A DNA stretch of 64,000 bases from an uncultured Opitutia bacterium (GTDB lineage Bacteria > Verrucomicrobiota > Verrucomicrobiia > Opitutales > Opitutaceae). The notes below the pieces were generated by a model. The model did not search any database and was not told the DNA's origin. It saw nothing but the letters and a program-made list of their open reading frames with translations. Every line of letters begins with the position of its first letter. Positions within the stretch are counted from its first letter, which is position 1. Position numbers and translations under genes: made by a program. Shown piece after piece: positions 50 to 5,667 of the stretch. The stretch is taken from the NCBI GenBank assembly GCA_903881475.1, contig CAIRTK010000017.1, positions 1 to 64,000 of the forward strand. The letters are read 5' to 3'.

Positions 50-126
50 GTCCCCATCGTCTAGCCCGGTCAGGACACCACCCTTTCACGGTGAGAACCG
101 GGGTTCGAATCCCCGTGGGGACGCCA
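50..126 (+). tRNA. tRNA-Glu (anticodon UUC)
   Basis: Full cloverleaf: the acceptor arm GTCCCCA pairs with TGGGGAC (116-122), the anticodon loop CTTTCAC (83-89) carries TTC at 85-87, the T-arm contains GGTTCGAATCC, and the 3' CCA is encoded (124-126). The outermost anticodon-stem pair is a C-A mismatch. Sequence and length match bacterial tRNA-Glu. The 3' half is read on the other strand as the end of a recombinase-like open frame, so this tRNA is a probable old integration site. Confidence 0.95.
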
Positions 127-343
127 TCGGCTCTTTGCTGTCGGTTATCTGCGTTAAGACATTGAAAAACGCGCAAGTTGTGACGGTTCTAAATTCACCG
201 TCCGCGTAGCTGATCCCGTCAGGGAAGAGCACTTGTTGTAGCTTCTGCCGCTGGTCCAAGTCGGCGCAGCGCCACATTTCGCCGGCATTGGCAATTATCA
301 TAGACGGAGGCAGCAAGTTCTGATTGGTAATCCGGGCTTGGAT
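86..343 (-). pseudogene. Serine site-specific recombinase, C-terminal remnant
   Basis: An open frame on the minus strand ends inside the tRNA-Glu gene, and its last twelve residues (ASPRGFEPRFSP) are simply the complement of the tRNA 3' half. Just before that lies a stretch around AGEMWRCADLDQRQKLQQVLFPDG and FRTVTTCAFFNVL, which resembles the C-terminal tail of large serine recombinases (the region after the zinc ribbon, typically QKQRLQ-LFPEG). The resolvase catalytic domain and the zinc ribbon are absent. Similarity stops near 343, where unrelated sequence with an inverted repeat begins. I read it as the surviving end of an integrase from an element that once occupied the tRNA. Family recognition is from memory of motifs, not a search. 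Confidence 0.55.
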
Positions 344-370
344 TACAGGGGACCCCACGGTCACCGGCCG

Positions 371-433
371 ATCAGGGGTTGCTGCGCCAGGGCGCACGAT
401 GCCTGGGCAGCCGCGCTGATCACTACCCCTGAT
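371..433. repeat. Imperfect inverted repeat behind the recombinase remnant
   Basis: ATCAGGGGT (371-379) and ACCCCTGAT (425-433) are perfect complements, and shorter complementary blocks lie between them. The repeat occupies the break where recombinase similarity stops. Together with 127-343 it fills the gap between the tRNA and the first intact gene. It could be a terminator or a scar of element loss. Confidence 0.45.
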
Positions 434-471
434 TCCGGGCTGGAGCGAAGGTTACCCTAAAAATTGAGCCT

Positions 472-2112
472 ATGATTTTCCGATTGTTGAACTGGCTGGG
501 CTTCACCGGCGACCGGCTCGCCTTCCCGGGTCTCTCCGAGGCGAATGAAATCGAGGTGGCGGTGGAACTCGTCCCGCCGCCCGATCCGGATCGGGCGCCG
601 CCGCGCAAGGTGCGCCGGTCGGCCATCCTGGGCCTGGTCGCCGCCACCCTGATTTTCCTCACGCCGCTCGCCGCCTACCGGCCGGCGATTTTCCATTATT
701 ACGGATTGCGGGACTGCTACTCGAACCTGCGCGAAGCGCACGAGGAGCCGGGCAAGCTGATCCAATTCTGCGCGTCCCATGCCCGGCCGATCTACGGCTG
801 GTTGCTGGAGGTCAGCCTGCGGCGCATCGACACGATCCGCCAGTTGCAGTGGATCCGGATGCTGTCCGCCCTGCTGCTGGGTGCGATCTCGTTCGCGAGC
901 TACCGGTTGCTGCGCCGGATCGGCTGGTCGGTGGGCTCGAGCCTGCTGCTTGCGCTGTGGCTCGGGTTGGTGCCCTCCGCCCAGGTGATGGCGGGGTGGG
1001 CGATCGGCTGGCCCTACAGCGTCGCGGTGCTGATGGCGCTGGGGGCCTTTGCCCTCGCGGAGGCGGCCTTGGCCGCCGGGCCGCCGGGTTTTTCGAAGGT
1101 CCGTCAACTCCTTGCGTCGGTCGGGTTGCTGGCGGCCAGCGCCCTCGTCTATCAGCCCAATGCGCTCTTTTATCTGGTGCCCCTGGCCGCGGCCCTGATT
1201 GCCCGGTCCGGCCCCCGCCAGCGTGACCATGTTTGCTGGGTCTTGCGGCACGTGGCGGTGGTGGTCGCGGGTTTGTCCCTCGCCTACGCCTTCATGCGGG
1301 GGTGTTACGCCGTGGGGATTTTCCACCCTTCGGCCCGGATCGCCTTCGAGGCGCAGTGGGGGGAAAAACTGCGGTGGTTCATCACCGAGCCGCTGCCCAA
1401 TGCGCTGAGCCTGTTTGTGATCAATGACAACAACGGCCACGACCGGATCGCCTATCTGGCCGGCGCGCTCGCCGCCGGGGGCTTCCTCATCGCCGGGGTC
1501 GCGCTGGAATGGCGGCATCGCGGCCGCGCCCGCGGCCTGGTCTGGCTGGCCGGCCTGCTGGGCCTGCCGGTGCTGGCCTTCGCGGTCAGCCTCCTCGCGG
1601 CCGAGCGGTATGCCACCTATCGCACGATCTTTCCGCTGACGGGCGTGCTCCTGTGCTGGCTCATCGCCTCGTTGCGCCTGAGCTTCGGCCGCATGGGATC
1701 AGGGGTGAGGCGGAGCGGCGCGCTCCTGCTGATCGGGCTCGCGCTGCTGGCGGCGCGGCGCCGCACCTACGCGCTGCTGGCGGTGCCCCAGGGCAATGAA
1801 TGGGGGCTTGTGCTCGACGGCGCAAAGAAGGTCCGGCTGGAGGAGGGCCGCCCGGACATCTTTCTGATCGAGCCGACGCCCAACGACATTTCCACCGCCA
1901 CGATCTATCACGACGAGTTCGGCTCGCTTTCCACGAATTCCGACTGGGTGCCGAAGGAAATGTTCAAGCGCGCCATGCACGACCTGCATCCGCAGGTGCC
2001 CGGGCTCGACCAGCGGTACCGGTTTGCCTCCGGCCCGCGGCTGCCGGCTACCGGGCGCTTTGACGTGGTCATCGACCTGCGCGAGCTGAGAAGCCTGCGG
2101 ACGGAAAACTGA
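472..2112 (+). CDS. Polytopic membrane protein, possible GT-C-like transferase
   Basis: 546 residues. A hydrophilic N-terminus (about 45 residues) is followed by roughly eleven hydrophobic segments between residues 50 and 440, then a soluble C-terminal domain of about 110 residues that ends before the stop. The first loop after TM1 has YYGLRDCYSNLREAHEEPG and then ARPIYGWLLE, the position where GT-C glycosyltransferases carry an acidic catalytic loop. A lipid-linked sugar transferase is therefore conceivable, but no family motif is decisive. It stands alone; the next gene converges on it with a 39-base gap. Product recognition is weak, but the frame is clearly coding (length, codon bias, consistent topology). 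Confidence 0.6.
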   Translation: MIFRLLNWLGFTGDRLAFPGLSEANEIEVAVELVPPPDPDRAPPRKVRRSAILGLVAATLIFLTPLAAYRPAIFHYYGLRDCYSNLREAHEEPGKLIQFCASHARPIYGWLLEVSLRRIDTIRQLQWIRMLSALLLGAISFASYRLLRRIGWSVGSSLLLALWLGLVPSAQVMAGWAIGWPYSVAVLMALGAFALAEAALAAGPPGFSKVRQLLASVGLLAASALVYQPNALFYLVPLAAALIARSGPRQRDHVCWVLRHVAVVVAGLSLAYAFMRGCYAVGIFHPSARIAFEAQWGEKLRWFITEPLPNALSLFVINDNNGHDRIAYLAGALAAGGFLIAGVALEWRHRGRARGLVWLAGLLGLPVLAFAVSLLAAERYATYRTIFPLTGVLLCWLIASLRLSFGRMGSGVRRSGALLLIGLALLAARRRTYALLAVPQGNEWGLVLDGAKKVRLEEGRPDIFLIEPTPNDISTATIYHDEFGSLSTNSDWVPKEMFKRAMHDLHPQVPGLDQRYRFASGPRLPATGRFDVVIDLRELRSLRTEN

Positions 2113-2151
2113 CGCCCCGGTGTTTGGGCCGCGGGCGGTGAAGGAAGAAGT

Positions 2152-3294
2152 CTAAGCCACCGGCGGCCGGCTCCCGCCCGGCGGTGGCTTGGGCAGCTGC
2201 TTCATCAGGGTGGTGAGCGCCTCATCCGAAATCCCGTGGCTGACGTTCACGTTGTAACACTCATGGAGGAAGGTCTCCACCGAGACCCATTGGTCCTTCC
2301 AGCGCACCCGTCCGGTCCACGCGCAGAATGTGACAAACTGCTCCAGGCGCTCCACCTGGCTGGCGGCGGCGCCCAACTGGGAGATCAGCCGCGCCTGCTC
2401 AACTTCGGAATGCCGTTGCTGGGCGAGGGCGGCGGAAAGGAAGAGTGCGGTGCCGAGGCATACGCCCATGAAGACATTCAGATAGACCATCTGGGCGCCG
2501 GTCCACTCGCCTTGGAACGGGCCGGCATGGGCGACGACCGCGTCAAAGGCGAACAGGCCCAGCACGGTGCCGGCGGTCACGGCGACGGAAGGGACAAAGC
2601 GGACCGACGCCCAGACGAGCAGGGGAAAAGCAAAGAAGAGCGCAACCGGCAGCGGCCAGCCGTGTGTGGACCACCGGCCGGGCCCGAAGGCCCCCAGCAT
2701 GAGCGTGAGGAACGCCAGCACAGCGAATTCGCGCCATTCACCCGCGGTGCTAGCGGGACGCGGCCAGCGGATCCACGCCAGCACCGCCGGGGCGATCACA
2801 AACTGGGCGAAGATGTTCGAGGCAAACCAGGCTGCGGCGGTCGACCAGAACTGCCCGGCTGGCAGCTGGCCGGCATAGAGCAGCGCGCACATCCCCAGCA
2901 GGGCGCTGAGCGGCTGCAGGACCAGGAGTTCGCCCGCAAGCAGCTGCACGACATCGTCCAGCCGGTCAAAGGCGATGCGGCGGCCCGGGCGGTCATGGAA
3001 CCACCAGCCGGCCAGGGCCGCGTCCAGGCTGTTGCCCGTCGCCATGATCAGGGAGGCGCCCATGGGCTGCCCGCTGGCCAGCGTGGCTGCGAGCTCGCCG
3101 ATGAAGACGCCCGGCCAGACGTTCCTCCCCCACAGCAGGGAGGCGGTGAGGGACAAACCGGCGGGAATGTACAGCACCCAGGATACGCCGGCGACGACCG
3201 CGGACATCTGGATGCAAAATCTGCCGGCGGCAAAATAGGTGACGGCGAGAAGTCCCCAGATCAGGAGCCATCGCGATGCGCTTCTCCGATTCAT
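2152..3294 (-). CDS. MASE1-domain membrane sensor without an output domain
   Basis: 380 residues. Residues 1-300 hold about eight membrane helices typical of MASE1, an integral-membrane sensory module normally found at the N-terminus of histidine kinases and GGDEF/EAL proteins: YFAAGRFCIQM, then VLYIPAGLSLTASLLWG, WPGVFIGELAA and GNSLDAALAGWWFH. The protein ends about 80 residues after the last helix in a short coiled region (SEVEQARLISQLGAAASQVERLEQF) and a small tail. No H-box, HATPase, GGDEF or EAL motif follows, so signalling would need a partner protein. ATG at 3292-3294. The downstream neighbour converges from the left. Family assignment is firm; function is unknown. Confidence 0.75.
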   Translation of the reverse strand: MNRRSASRWLLIWGLLAVTYFAAGRFCIQMSAVVAGVSWVLYIPAGLSLTASLLWGRNVWPGVFIGELAATLASGQPMGASLIMATGNSLDAALAGWWFHDRPGRRIAFDRLDDVVQLLAGELLVLQPLSALLGMCALLYAGQLPAGQFWSTAAAWFASNIFAQFVIAPAVLAWIRWPRPASTAGEWREFAVLAFLTLMLGAFGPGRWSTHGWPLPVALFFAFPLLVWASVRFVPSVAVTAGTVLGLFAFDAVVAHAGPFQGEWTGAQMVYLNVFMGVCLGTALFLSAALAQQRHSEVEQARLISQLGAAASQVERLEQFVTFCAWTGRVRWKDQWVSVETFLHECYNVNVSHGISDEALTTLMKQLPKPPPGGSRPPVA

Positions 3295-3383
3295 CGGGCC
3301 TCAATGTTGCGATTCACCACGAGCGGCAACCTCAAACCGGGTCCGCGACCCTGCGGCCTGTGACCCGCGCCGTTGGGCCCGCG

Positions 3384-5438
3384 TCAGGGGTGCAGCTCGA
3401 ACGCAAACCGCAGGTCATCCCCGCACCATTGCACGAAATTCGTGCCCCAGGCGTTGTTCACGAGGTTGAAATGGAGGCCGCGGCGGAGGTCGGGTGGCTG
3501 CTGGCGGAATTCAAGCAGCGTGGCCTTCTCGAGGGCCACGACCGGGGCCTGGCGGTTTACGATCGTCAGCGACGGATGCACGGCGCGCTCGATCGCATGG
3601 AGGTGACGGTTGCCACCTGCGACGACGCGCCGCGGGTCGACCGTCTGGCCGAGCTTCACGAGCCGCCAGTCGCGGGGCCGGCTGACGCGCGGCACGAACG
3701 AAAACCAGGCGGCCTCGGGGATGCGGCTGGCGGGCTTGCCAAACCATTGCAGGGTGACGCGCATCGGGGCGAAGCCCTGCGGCAGGGTCCACTCGATGGT
3801 GATCTCCTCCGGACAGCCGAAATGCTTCACGGCCTCCGCCGGACCGCGCAGCGTGGCGAGGACCCGGGGCGCGCCACCGGTTTGGTCCAGCTCCAGTGAG
3901 ACCAGCCGCGCGGACCAGCGCCGGGCGCGCACCCCGCGGATTTTTTCGTAGCCGAACTTGGTCAGGTCCGGCCGCGACCACGATTCGGTGGCCGCGTGGT
4001 TGACCACATAGGTCCGAAACCAGCGTTCACAATCGGCCGGCGAAAAAACTTGGTAGCCAAACAGCCCGAGCGGATGGGTCGCATCGGCCAGCACGCGTCC
4101 GTCCGGCAGGCGCCAGCCGGTCAGCGCACCGCGGGCATCGAAGGCTAGCGTATGGCCGGCGGTCTCGATCCGGCGGGAAGCCAGCCGGTCGGCGGCGCGC
4201 CGCAACGGACGCCGGGCCGCGCAGGCCGCCACGGCGGCGCGGGCCTGCTGGTAGGGCGAGTTCTCCGCCCGAGCCGCGGGCCCGCCTTTCGGGTCAGCGG
4301 GGAGGGTGCCTCTCACCTTCCGGAGCGCGGCCACGGCGGTGCGCAGGTACGCCCGCTGTTCCCGCCATGAAGCTTCCCAGGCCGCGAAGAGCCCGCGTTG
4401 GCGGTCGCGGGCGAATTGGGGTTTCTTCCACCGGCCGACGGACCGGATGATCCATGGCGCATTCAGCACCGGGATGACAATTTTGGTGTCCCGGCCCCAG
4501 GTGTGCTCCGGCACCAGCATCAGCTCCCGCGAGAATTTCCTGAAAGCGACATCCGCGGCGAGGGCAGGTCGCCGGGCGAGCGCATAATGCCGGAATTCAA
4601 GCAGCGCACGGTAGCGCGCCAGTTTCCACGGATCGCTTGGCGGACCGTAGATCCAGGTGTCACCGATCTCATTCGTGACCACGGGCAGCCGGTCGCGAAC
4701 CGGGGCGAGGGCGCGGGCAAAATCGTCGAGCGTGCCGGCGACGACCTCCACTCCGGGATGCGCCGTCCGCACCGCAGCCAGCACGGCCCGCACCGCGGTG
4801 GCGTCCTGCGGCCCGTGATTGTCGCCGGTATGCGCGAAGTGGAGCGCGGTGTCCAAGCCGGGCACTCGCACCGGCCGGCCGTAGTCGCTGGAGTAGGCGA
4901 CGACGACCTCTTCGCCGCCGGGTGCGCGCCACCGAAAGACCGGTGGCGTGGCCGGCACGGGCGTGGCGGGGTTCACCCCGATGTGGAAAAATTCCACCCC
5001 GGCGCGCGCAAGATGCGGCACGAGGGAGCACGTGTGCCCAGGCACGTCGGTCATCTTGGCGGAGAGGGTTTTCCGGCCAAAGCGGCGGTCGAGATCGGCC
5101 GAGAGCGAGAGCCCGAAATCGCAGAGCGACGCATCGAGGAGTTCCGAGTGCCACGTAAATGGCAGGGCGTGCCACGCCAGGTCGCCAGCGGTAATGGCGC
5201 GCTCCATCGCCCGCCGGTGCGCCGGGCTGGCGCGCTCGAGGAATTCGGTGATCAGCCAGGATCCCGTCGTCCAGACCAGGCGGTCGGGTTCGCCGGCTTC
5301 CCGCAATTCCCGGGCCGTGGCCAGCGCCTGGGGAATGAAACGGGTGCAGTATTTCCGCAGCACCCGGGCGGCGAGGTCGGTGTAACCGATGTCGAGGTGG
5401 GTTTTGAAGACGACGATGATCCGGCGGAGGGCGGGCAT
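3384..5438 (-). CDS. DUF5054 / GH38-like glycosidase-related protein
   Basis: 684 residues when started at MPALRRIIVVFKTHLDIGYTD (5438). An upstream ATG in frame at 5549 would add a low-complexity leader that reads through intergenic repeat DNA, so it is rejected. The N-terminal THLDIGYTD and later TDVPGHT resemble the metal-binding barrel of family 38 alpha-mannosidases (HxDxGW-type). The body matches my recollection of DUF5054 proteins, which carry this GH38-like N-terminal half. A C-terminal beta-rich half (after about residue 440) resembles the mannosidase jelly-roll part. There is no signal peptide, so it is predicted cytoplasmic. It is divergent from cstA with about 230 bases between the starts. 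Substrate unknown. Confidence 0.75.
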   Translation of the reverse strand: MPALRRIIVVFKTHLDIGYTDLAARVLRKYCTRFIPQALATARELREAGEPDRLVWTTGSWLITEFLERASPAHRRAMERAITAGDLAWHALPFTWHSELLDASLCDFGLSLSADLDRRFGRKTLSAKMTDVPGHTCSLVPHLARAGVEFFHIGVNPATPVPATPPVFRWRAPGGEEVVVAYSSDYGRPVRVPGLDTALHFAHTGDNHGPQDATAVRAVLAAVRTAHPGVEVVAGTLDDFARALAPVRDRLPVVTNEIGDTWIYGPPSDPWKLARYRALLEFRHYALARRPALAADVAFRKFSRELMLVPEHTWGRDTKIVIPVLNAPWIIRSVGRWKKPQFARDRQRGLFAAWEASWREQRAYLRTAVAALRKVRGTLPADPKGGPAARAENSPYQQARAAVAACAARRPLRRAADRLASRRIETAGHTLAFDARGALTGWRLPDGRVLADATHPLGLFGYQVFSPADCERWFRTYVVNHAATESWSRPDLTKFGYEKIRGVRARRWSARLVSLELDQTGGAPRVLATLRGPAEAVKHFGCPEEITIEWTLPQGFAPMRVTLQWFGKPASRIPEAAWFSFVPRVSRPRDWRLVKLGQTVDPRRVVAGGNRHLHAIERAVHPSLTIVNRQAPVVALEKATLLEFRQQPPDLRRGLHFNLVNNAWGTNFVQWCGDDLRFAFELHP

Positions 5439-5504
5439 GGCGGAATGGCGGATTGCGGATTTGGGATGCCGGATTGTCGAGTCCGGAGACGGGAGTCGAC
5501 TGGA

Positions 5505-5564
5505 GGGCGGGTTCTCCGAGCGAACCGTTCGCGGACGGGCGCGGCTCATCCGGAGGATTCGCCC
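5505..5564. repeat. Degenerate inverted repeat, GTAGGGC (cloverleaf) family
   Basis: The right arm 5542-5564 is identical over 23 bases to the right arm of the perfect repeat at 10253-10324. The left arm 5505-5526 is a decayed copy of its complement. It lies in the divergent promoter region between the DUF5054 gene and cstA. Confidence 0.7.
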
Positions 5565-5667
5565 GGCCTTGGGTCCAATGTCCTGCCGCTCACGCCCGTG
5601 GTTACATGCCGTCTTGCGCCGGCAGCGGGATTTCCCATCGTCGGCGCCAACCCCGGTTCATCGCCCC

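Follow-up and report, generated by a model that had tools for sequence, protein, structure and literature searches.

The beginning of the window, that is, of the whole 64,000-nt stretch of DNA that was analysed, contains a tRNA-Glu gene into which the C-terminal end of a serine recombinase gene (~298..127) reads from the minus strand. This tail is very probably the remnant of a recombinase that stood at the border of a tRNA-integrated element, the rest of which has since been lost. A truncated serine recombinase reading into tRNA-Glu had been proposed by a sequence-only reading of this DNA, and the proposal was borne out by the ARAGORN prediction of the tRNA and by a match of the tail to a profile of its family, with tRNA residues excluded. 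The feature is a degraded mobile-element border, in itself ordinary.

The window starts at base 1 of contig C17, and 49 bases precede the tRNA-Glu gene, whose conserved left flank is carried by contig C53. The tRNA has the anticodon TTC (UUC) and is the only one that ARAGORN found in the window. On the minus strand, a frame open from 451 includes an ORF of 103 aa (397..86). Its stop falls in the 3' half of the tRNA, as the sequence-only reading had stated, at a depth of 41 nt. This frame consists of three parts: flank (451 to ~298), recombinase (~298 to 127) and the antisense of the tRNA 3' half (126 to 86). The last 13 residues of the ORF are antisense tRNA and are uninformative on the identity of the gene, and residues 3-34 are the part that matches the flank in the same-genus genome G008. 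The recombinase assignment, which had been drawn over positions 50-433, therefore holds for ~298..127 but not for the whole span, because the frame is flank from ~298 on. The G+C content of the tail (127-298) is 52.9% vs 66.9% for the window, and equally low values were found in 20 of 1,250 windows of the same size. The features of the locus are as follows.

50..126, plus strand: tRNA-Glu (anticodon TTC) with encoded CCA, the probable attachment target; found by ARAGORN; bases 1-126 are conserved at 87-92% in 10 of the 11 other genomes of the genus, with no match in G005.
86..298, minus strand: C-terminal remnant of a serine recombinase gene, its last 13 residues antisense tRNA; profile match 298..131, G396 homologue 46% identical (E 3.3e-14).
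118..126, plus strand: probable element-supplied last ~9 nt of the tRNA, by analogy with the locus pairs L110/L111 and L093/L094.
295..301, no strand: join between the recombinase remnant and other DNA; the profile match ends at 298 and the G008 similarity starts at 295.
295..5612, no strand: remainder of the variable zone on the right side of the tRNA; a flank common to G000 (the window's own genome), G008, G002 and G004 starts near 5613.
472-2112, plus strand: ORF with no Pfam match, found in 2 of 12 genomes of the genus.
3294..2152, minus strand: MASE1 protein (Pfam).
5549..3384, minus strand: DUF5054 protein (Pfam).

The identity of the tail was established with profiles of the C-termini of its relatives, from which the tRNA-encoded residues were cut; the same residues were cut from the tail frame, and all window frames of at least 25 residues were scanned. 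With the profile of 57 relatives, the trimmed tail frame scored E 4.1e-16, and the next of the 1,119 window frames scored 7.5. The profile of the 33 tRNA-Glu members alone gave E 2.2e-16 for the tail and 1.2 for the next window frame, and single relatives matched the trimmed tail down to E 5.5e-13. The tail thus carries the family-specific C-terminal region of a large serine recombinase. A homology search had been named as the step that could show the fragment not to be a recombinase; the family profile identified it as one. The ORF 397..86 had no match in Pfam, PHROGs or NCBIfam because the conserved recombinase domains are missing. Two PDB sequence matches to this ORF (E ~0.5) were to an unrelated protein and were rejected.

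A search of 387 genomes of the phylum with the 71-residue tail gave six foreign matches at E <= 0.01. The best of them, in G396 (46% identity), is a frame of 187 codons that lacks a catalytic domain and terminates in tRNA-Glu(TTC). The genome G129 contains a 506-codon frame with a PF00239 Resolvase domain (2.8e-33) and a PF13408 zinc-ribbon domain (3.1e-07), which ends in tRNA-Glu(CTC). L068 (G391) reads by eye like a putative serine recombinase, and its locus has no tRNA. L069, which resembles a transporter protein, and L070 were both rejected as relatives. Used alone as the query, the tail found no relative in genome contigs, viral contigs, plasmids or phages, and full-length relatives were therefore needed as queries. 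Among 95 relatives of the window's genome there was no other copy of the tail, and the single foreign match, in G008, covered the flank part.

As the sequence-only reading had held, only the tail survives in the assembly. No PF00239 Resolvase domain was found in the whole assembly, for which the tool gives 99.91% completeness; the same search was positive in 10 of 14 control genomes. The search for a second tRNA 3' end, which had been suggested as a check, found no exact copy of the last 15 nt of tRNA-Glu, either in the genome or in the window. The sole other near copy (14 of 15 nt, one mismatch) lies at C28:23489-23503, with no tRNA within the surrounding 3 kb, and may be a chance match or a displaced att fragment. 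A partial tRNA match on C24 is tRNA-Glu(CTC). Of the two marks of a genomic island, a complete tRNA at the border with an adjoining integrase gene is present here, the integrase gene being a remnant; the other, a displaced tRNA fragment at the far border, was found as an exact copy in neither genome nor window. The locus is therefore a remnant and not an intact island, and the absence of both the Resolvase domain and an exact second tRNA end from the assembly makes it a scar. Judging from what remains, the catalytic part was presumably deleted.

The tRNA-Glu site is a hot spot in the genus and is used by other elements, as the sequence-only reading had supposed for relatives. The tRNA region was matched in 11 of 12 genomes of the genus, the window's own included; there was no match in G005. 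Apart from G007, where the contig ends at the tRNA, the DNA to the right of the tRNA differs between these genomes. In G010, a 415-aa tyrosine integrase frame (PF00589, 2.4e-09) stops 41 nt inside the same tRNA-Glu, and the final 26 nt of the tRNA recur 7,701 and 12,063 bp downstream. G010 also has restriction-modification genes here: before the first of these copies, a BglII-like endonuclease (8.9e-23), an MT-A70 methyltransferase (1.3e-28) and a DndB-like protein (2.3e-14) are encoded. A copy of the tRNA end is also present in G003, at +569. G006 and G008 have a common tyrosine-integrase-like remnant next to the tRNA, in a frame that reads away from it; their similarity spans the first 223 residues of the G006 frame, and the PF22022 matches are below cut-off. 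In G008, the flank that resembles the window from 295 on (84% identity) begins 2.4 kb from the tRNA. Since the flank common to G000, G008, G002 and G004 starts only near 5613, the variable zone in the window's genome is ~5.5 kb long.

Several further observations were made at this site and its surroundings. The tyrosine integrase of G010 and the serine tail of the window, which are unrelated enzymes, both end in the same antisense frame of tRNA-Glu, and it is in this frame that an early stop occurs. On contig C41 of G010 (L023), the island is followed by a second stretch that a further copy of the tRNA end closes off, so that two elements may stand in tandem at this tRNA. The 5' side of tRNA-Glu varies in the genus as well: between the conserved left-hand gene and the tRNA, G001, G002, G004 and G008 have ~2.6-3.7 kb of extra DNA vs ~0.2 kb in G009, G010 and G011. 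In G042, a genome of the same family as the window's, a serine recombinase (L060) reads into tRNA-Leu(CAG).

The layout of the window recurs in many relatives of the recombinase. An alignment of four full-length relatives from the phylum (A1) was scanned against GTDB contigs, and the best 80 of 172 relatives were analysed. A locus was counted as tRNA-overlapping when the 3' end of the recombinase frame overlapped an antisense tRNA gene or lay no more than 60 nt past it, which was the case in 57 of these 80 loci. The 57 tRNAs comprised 33 tRNA-Glu, 6 Arg, 6 Ala, 4 His, 3 Met, 3 Lys and 2 Gln, with the stop within the tRNA in 48 loci and beyond it in 9. Of the 33 tRNA-Glu loci, 26 had the 41-nt overlap seen in the window; the frame reached 39, 40 or 42 nt into the tRNA in six others and 11 nt in one. 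L157 is among the 57, with a tRNA overlap of only 11 nt and without the usual tail. In the controls, the same definition applied to 2 of the 1,067 other frames that were 200 codons or longer (same loci, both strands). Of 27 serine recombinases drawn from 30 PF07508 loci of relatives, 3 of which had no match to A1, it applied to one, a tRNA-Leu case from the window's own family. It also applied to 2 of 80 viral contigs, 26 of which end with the ORF and only 8 of which score like the family.

In the remaining 23 of the 80 loci, no antisense tRNA was present at the end of the ORF. One of these (L122) is cut by the contig end, and in another (L163) a tRNA-His lies 65 nt beyond an earlier stop. Seven tRNA-less relatives (L116, L125, L128, L129, L135, L136 and L151) have a common alternative C-terminus with a WNQ motif; this group may use another target. 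Record titles of the tRNA-overlapping loci, mostly metagenome-assembled, include Verrucomicrobia, Planctomycetota, Holophagales, Myxococcales, Acidimicrobiales, Eisenbacteria, Omnitrophota, Cryosericum and many Patescibacteria.

All 57 tRNA-overlapping members among the best 80 of 172 contain PF00239, 54 contain PF13408 and 46 contain PF07508. The last count led us to reject a placement suggested by G129, the first full-length member, which has no PF07508 domain: that of a family lacking this Pfam Recombinase domain, of the "Serine Core" class as it is described in PMC12424338. The nearest named NCBIfam models were CcrB, which matched 57 of the 57 members, and XisF, which matched 56; member 1, the one for which cut-offs were compared, scored far below the curated values (91 vs 900 and 102 vs 375 bits, respectively). 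On a quick FastTree tree of 92 rows, calculated with the last 60 residues left out and accompanied by long-branch warnings, the label "ends in a tRNA" needed 19 changes (shuffled mean 27.1). The trait is therefore clustered, but it does not form one clade. The tRNA isotypes needed ~20 changes among the tRNA-bearing rows, which indicates that targets were switched. At E 1e-30, the family had five matches among phage records, all below 30% identity, and none among plasmids.

Three other origins of the tail were weighed against the preferred one. Read antisense, a T-arm invariably yields a peptide like ASPRGFEPRFSP, and a chance frame could have been called a recombinase on that peptide. Such a peptide does yield matches by itself: L071 (G055) matched only residues 55-71 of the tail, which are tRNA-encoded, and was rejected as a relative for that reason. 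However, the profile and single-relative matches given above were obtained after removal of the tRNA-encoded residues, and we regard a chance frame as scarcely credible. An assembly artefact, with the tail misjoined to the tRNA, might be suspected at a contig that starts so close before the tRNA; yet the tRNA, the tail and the G008-like flank (84% from 295) all lie on one contig, and the join has the exact geometry of the family, which makes a misjoin very improbable.

Alternatively, a rearrangement or another element that arrived later, such as one with a tyrosine integrase as in G010 or G008, may have placed the tail next to the tRNA, so that the serine recombinase would not itself have been a tRNA user here. 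The genus offers some ground for this, as other elements use the same tRNA-Glu and, in G008, tyrosine-integrase remnants occupy the same place before the same flank. A random join, however, would not produce a frame end 41 nt into the tRNA, the position shared with most tRNA-Glu relatives, and we consider this origin unlikely. An origin of the tail as a border recombinase has points against it too: the tail has no other copy in 95 relatives, no far-end repeat gives the size of the element, and the tRNA lies at a contig end. It nevertheless remains by far the most probable of these explanations, with the insertion presumably carried out by this recombinase itself.

Where such elements would join the host DNA is suggested by two pairs of loci. 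The tRNA-Ala genes of L110 and L111 differ (CGC and TGC), and the element end that adjoins them is the same: 59 of the 60 bases preceding the tRNA agree, and the identity runs 9 nt into the tRNA and then breaks. Between L093 and L094, identity is 88% as far as a point 9 nt inside the tRNA-Glu of L094; beyond that point, L093 consists of other DNA with no tRNA, and this locus could represent a free circle or an insertion at another place. On the basis of these two pairs, the final ~9 nt of the tRNA appear to come from the element and the remainder from the host. As the DNA common to L110 and L111 ends at that depth, about the last ten codons of the recombinase are probably derived from the host tRNA. 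The crossover point at the tRNA of the window would lie correspondingly. Exact repeats of at least 14 nt (those found were 14-16 nt) were present in 4 of the 57 tRNA-overlapping loci, most of which were searched over at most 11.5 kb. When the search for att repeats was extended to 26-60 kb in five loci, the best sites matched 13-15 of 20 positions, as did the controls (13-15). Since repeats were rarely found, the far ends of the elements are mostly undefined; a common segment of ~9 nt would explain the scarcity of exact repeats of 14 nt or more.

We propose that the recombinase gene lies at the border of the element, convergent with the tRNA gene. In the integrated state, the recombinase would read through the element-supplied tRNA end (~9 nt) into the host-encoded part and stop there. 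In the genome studied here, later loss of the catalytic part, and of a second tRNA end at the far side if there was one, would have left ~70 codons that now adjoin other DNA near base 298.

The junction had been described by the sequence-only reading as the usual one for tRNA-integrating elements, which is correct for tyrosine integrases. For serine recombinases, the use of tRNA genes was called unknown in a 2014 report (PMC4383910) and rare in one from 2011 (PMC3218068), which names phage phiRSM1 (tRNA-Ser) and a group of Mycobacterium AICEs (tRNA-Leu). By description there, these recombinases resemble the family presented here in being serine enzymes that integrate into tRNA genes. The closest precedent is DsiB of the Dehalococcoides islands, as reported in PMC3146451, an ssrA-specific serine recombinase whose 3' end always overlaps the att site and whose stop lies outside the island, at the tmRNA gene. 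Like the family here, DsiB is a serine recombinase at an island border with its 3' end overlapping the att site; its islands occur in tandem. In contrast to this family, DsiB is described with a tmRNA gene as target, insertion in the T-loop, a 20-bp repeat and a second recombinase, DsiA, alongside. The family here, set against DsiB by description, targets tRNAs, mostly tRNA-Glu, and the common DNA ends ~9 nt from the tRNA end. The target in the window is likewise a tRNA-Glu and not a tmRNA gene.

The islands treated in the Islander report (PMC4383910) carry tyrosine integrases and target tRNA genes; a piece of the element restores the gene, and some of the integrases extend across att. The type of target is thus the same, with an example at this very tRNA in G010, whereas the enzyme here belongs to an unrelated serine family. 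For M. abscessus, 16 of 23 tyrosine systems were placed at tRNA or tmRNA genes, and six serine systems were counted (PMC10654092). Beyond DsiB, phiRSM1 and the Mycobacterium group, no tRNA-targeting serine family was found in the open-licence PMC literature as far as its text was available; the family may be described in other papers.

Taken with moderate confidence, the relatives represent a widespread, cross-phylum group of serine integrases that have specialised in tRNA genes, with tRNA-Glu as the foremost target. Such integrases would supply ~9 nt of the tRNA and have a host-encoded C-terminus that changes with the target, they would have switched between isotypes, and their far-end repeat would be so short that island finders which depend on long repeats would tend to miss the family.

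The scar is thus ordinary, and its value lies in the family that it exposed. Running into tRNA genes is a habit usually credited to the unrelated tyrosine integrases. A large family with this habit in Verrucomicrobia, Planctomycetota, Patescibacteria and other groups, acting on conserved tRNA genes, could account for unassigned islands in hard-to-culture groups. It would also offer integrases with landing sites in nearly every bacterium, and the effect of a C-terminus borrowed from a host tRNA on integration or excision becomes testable.
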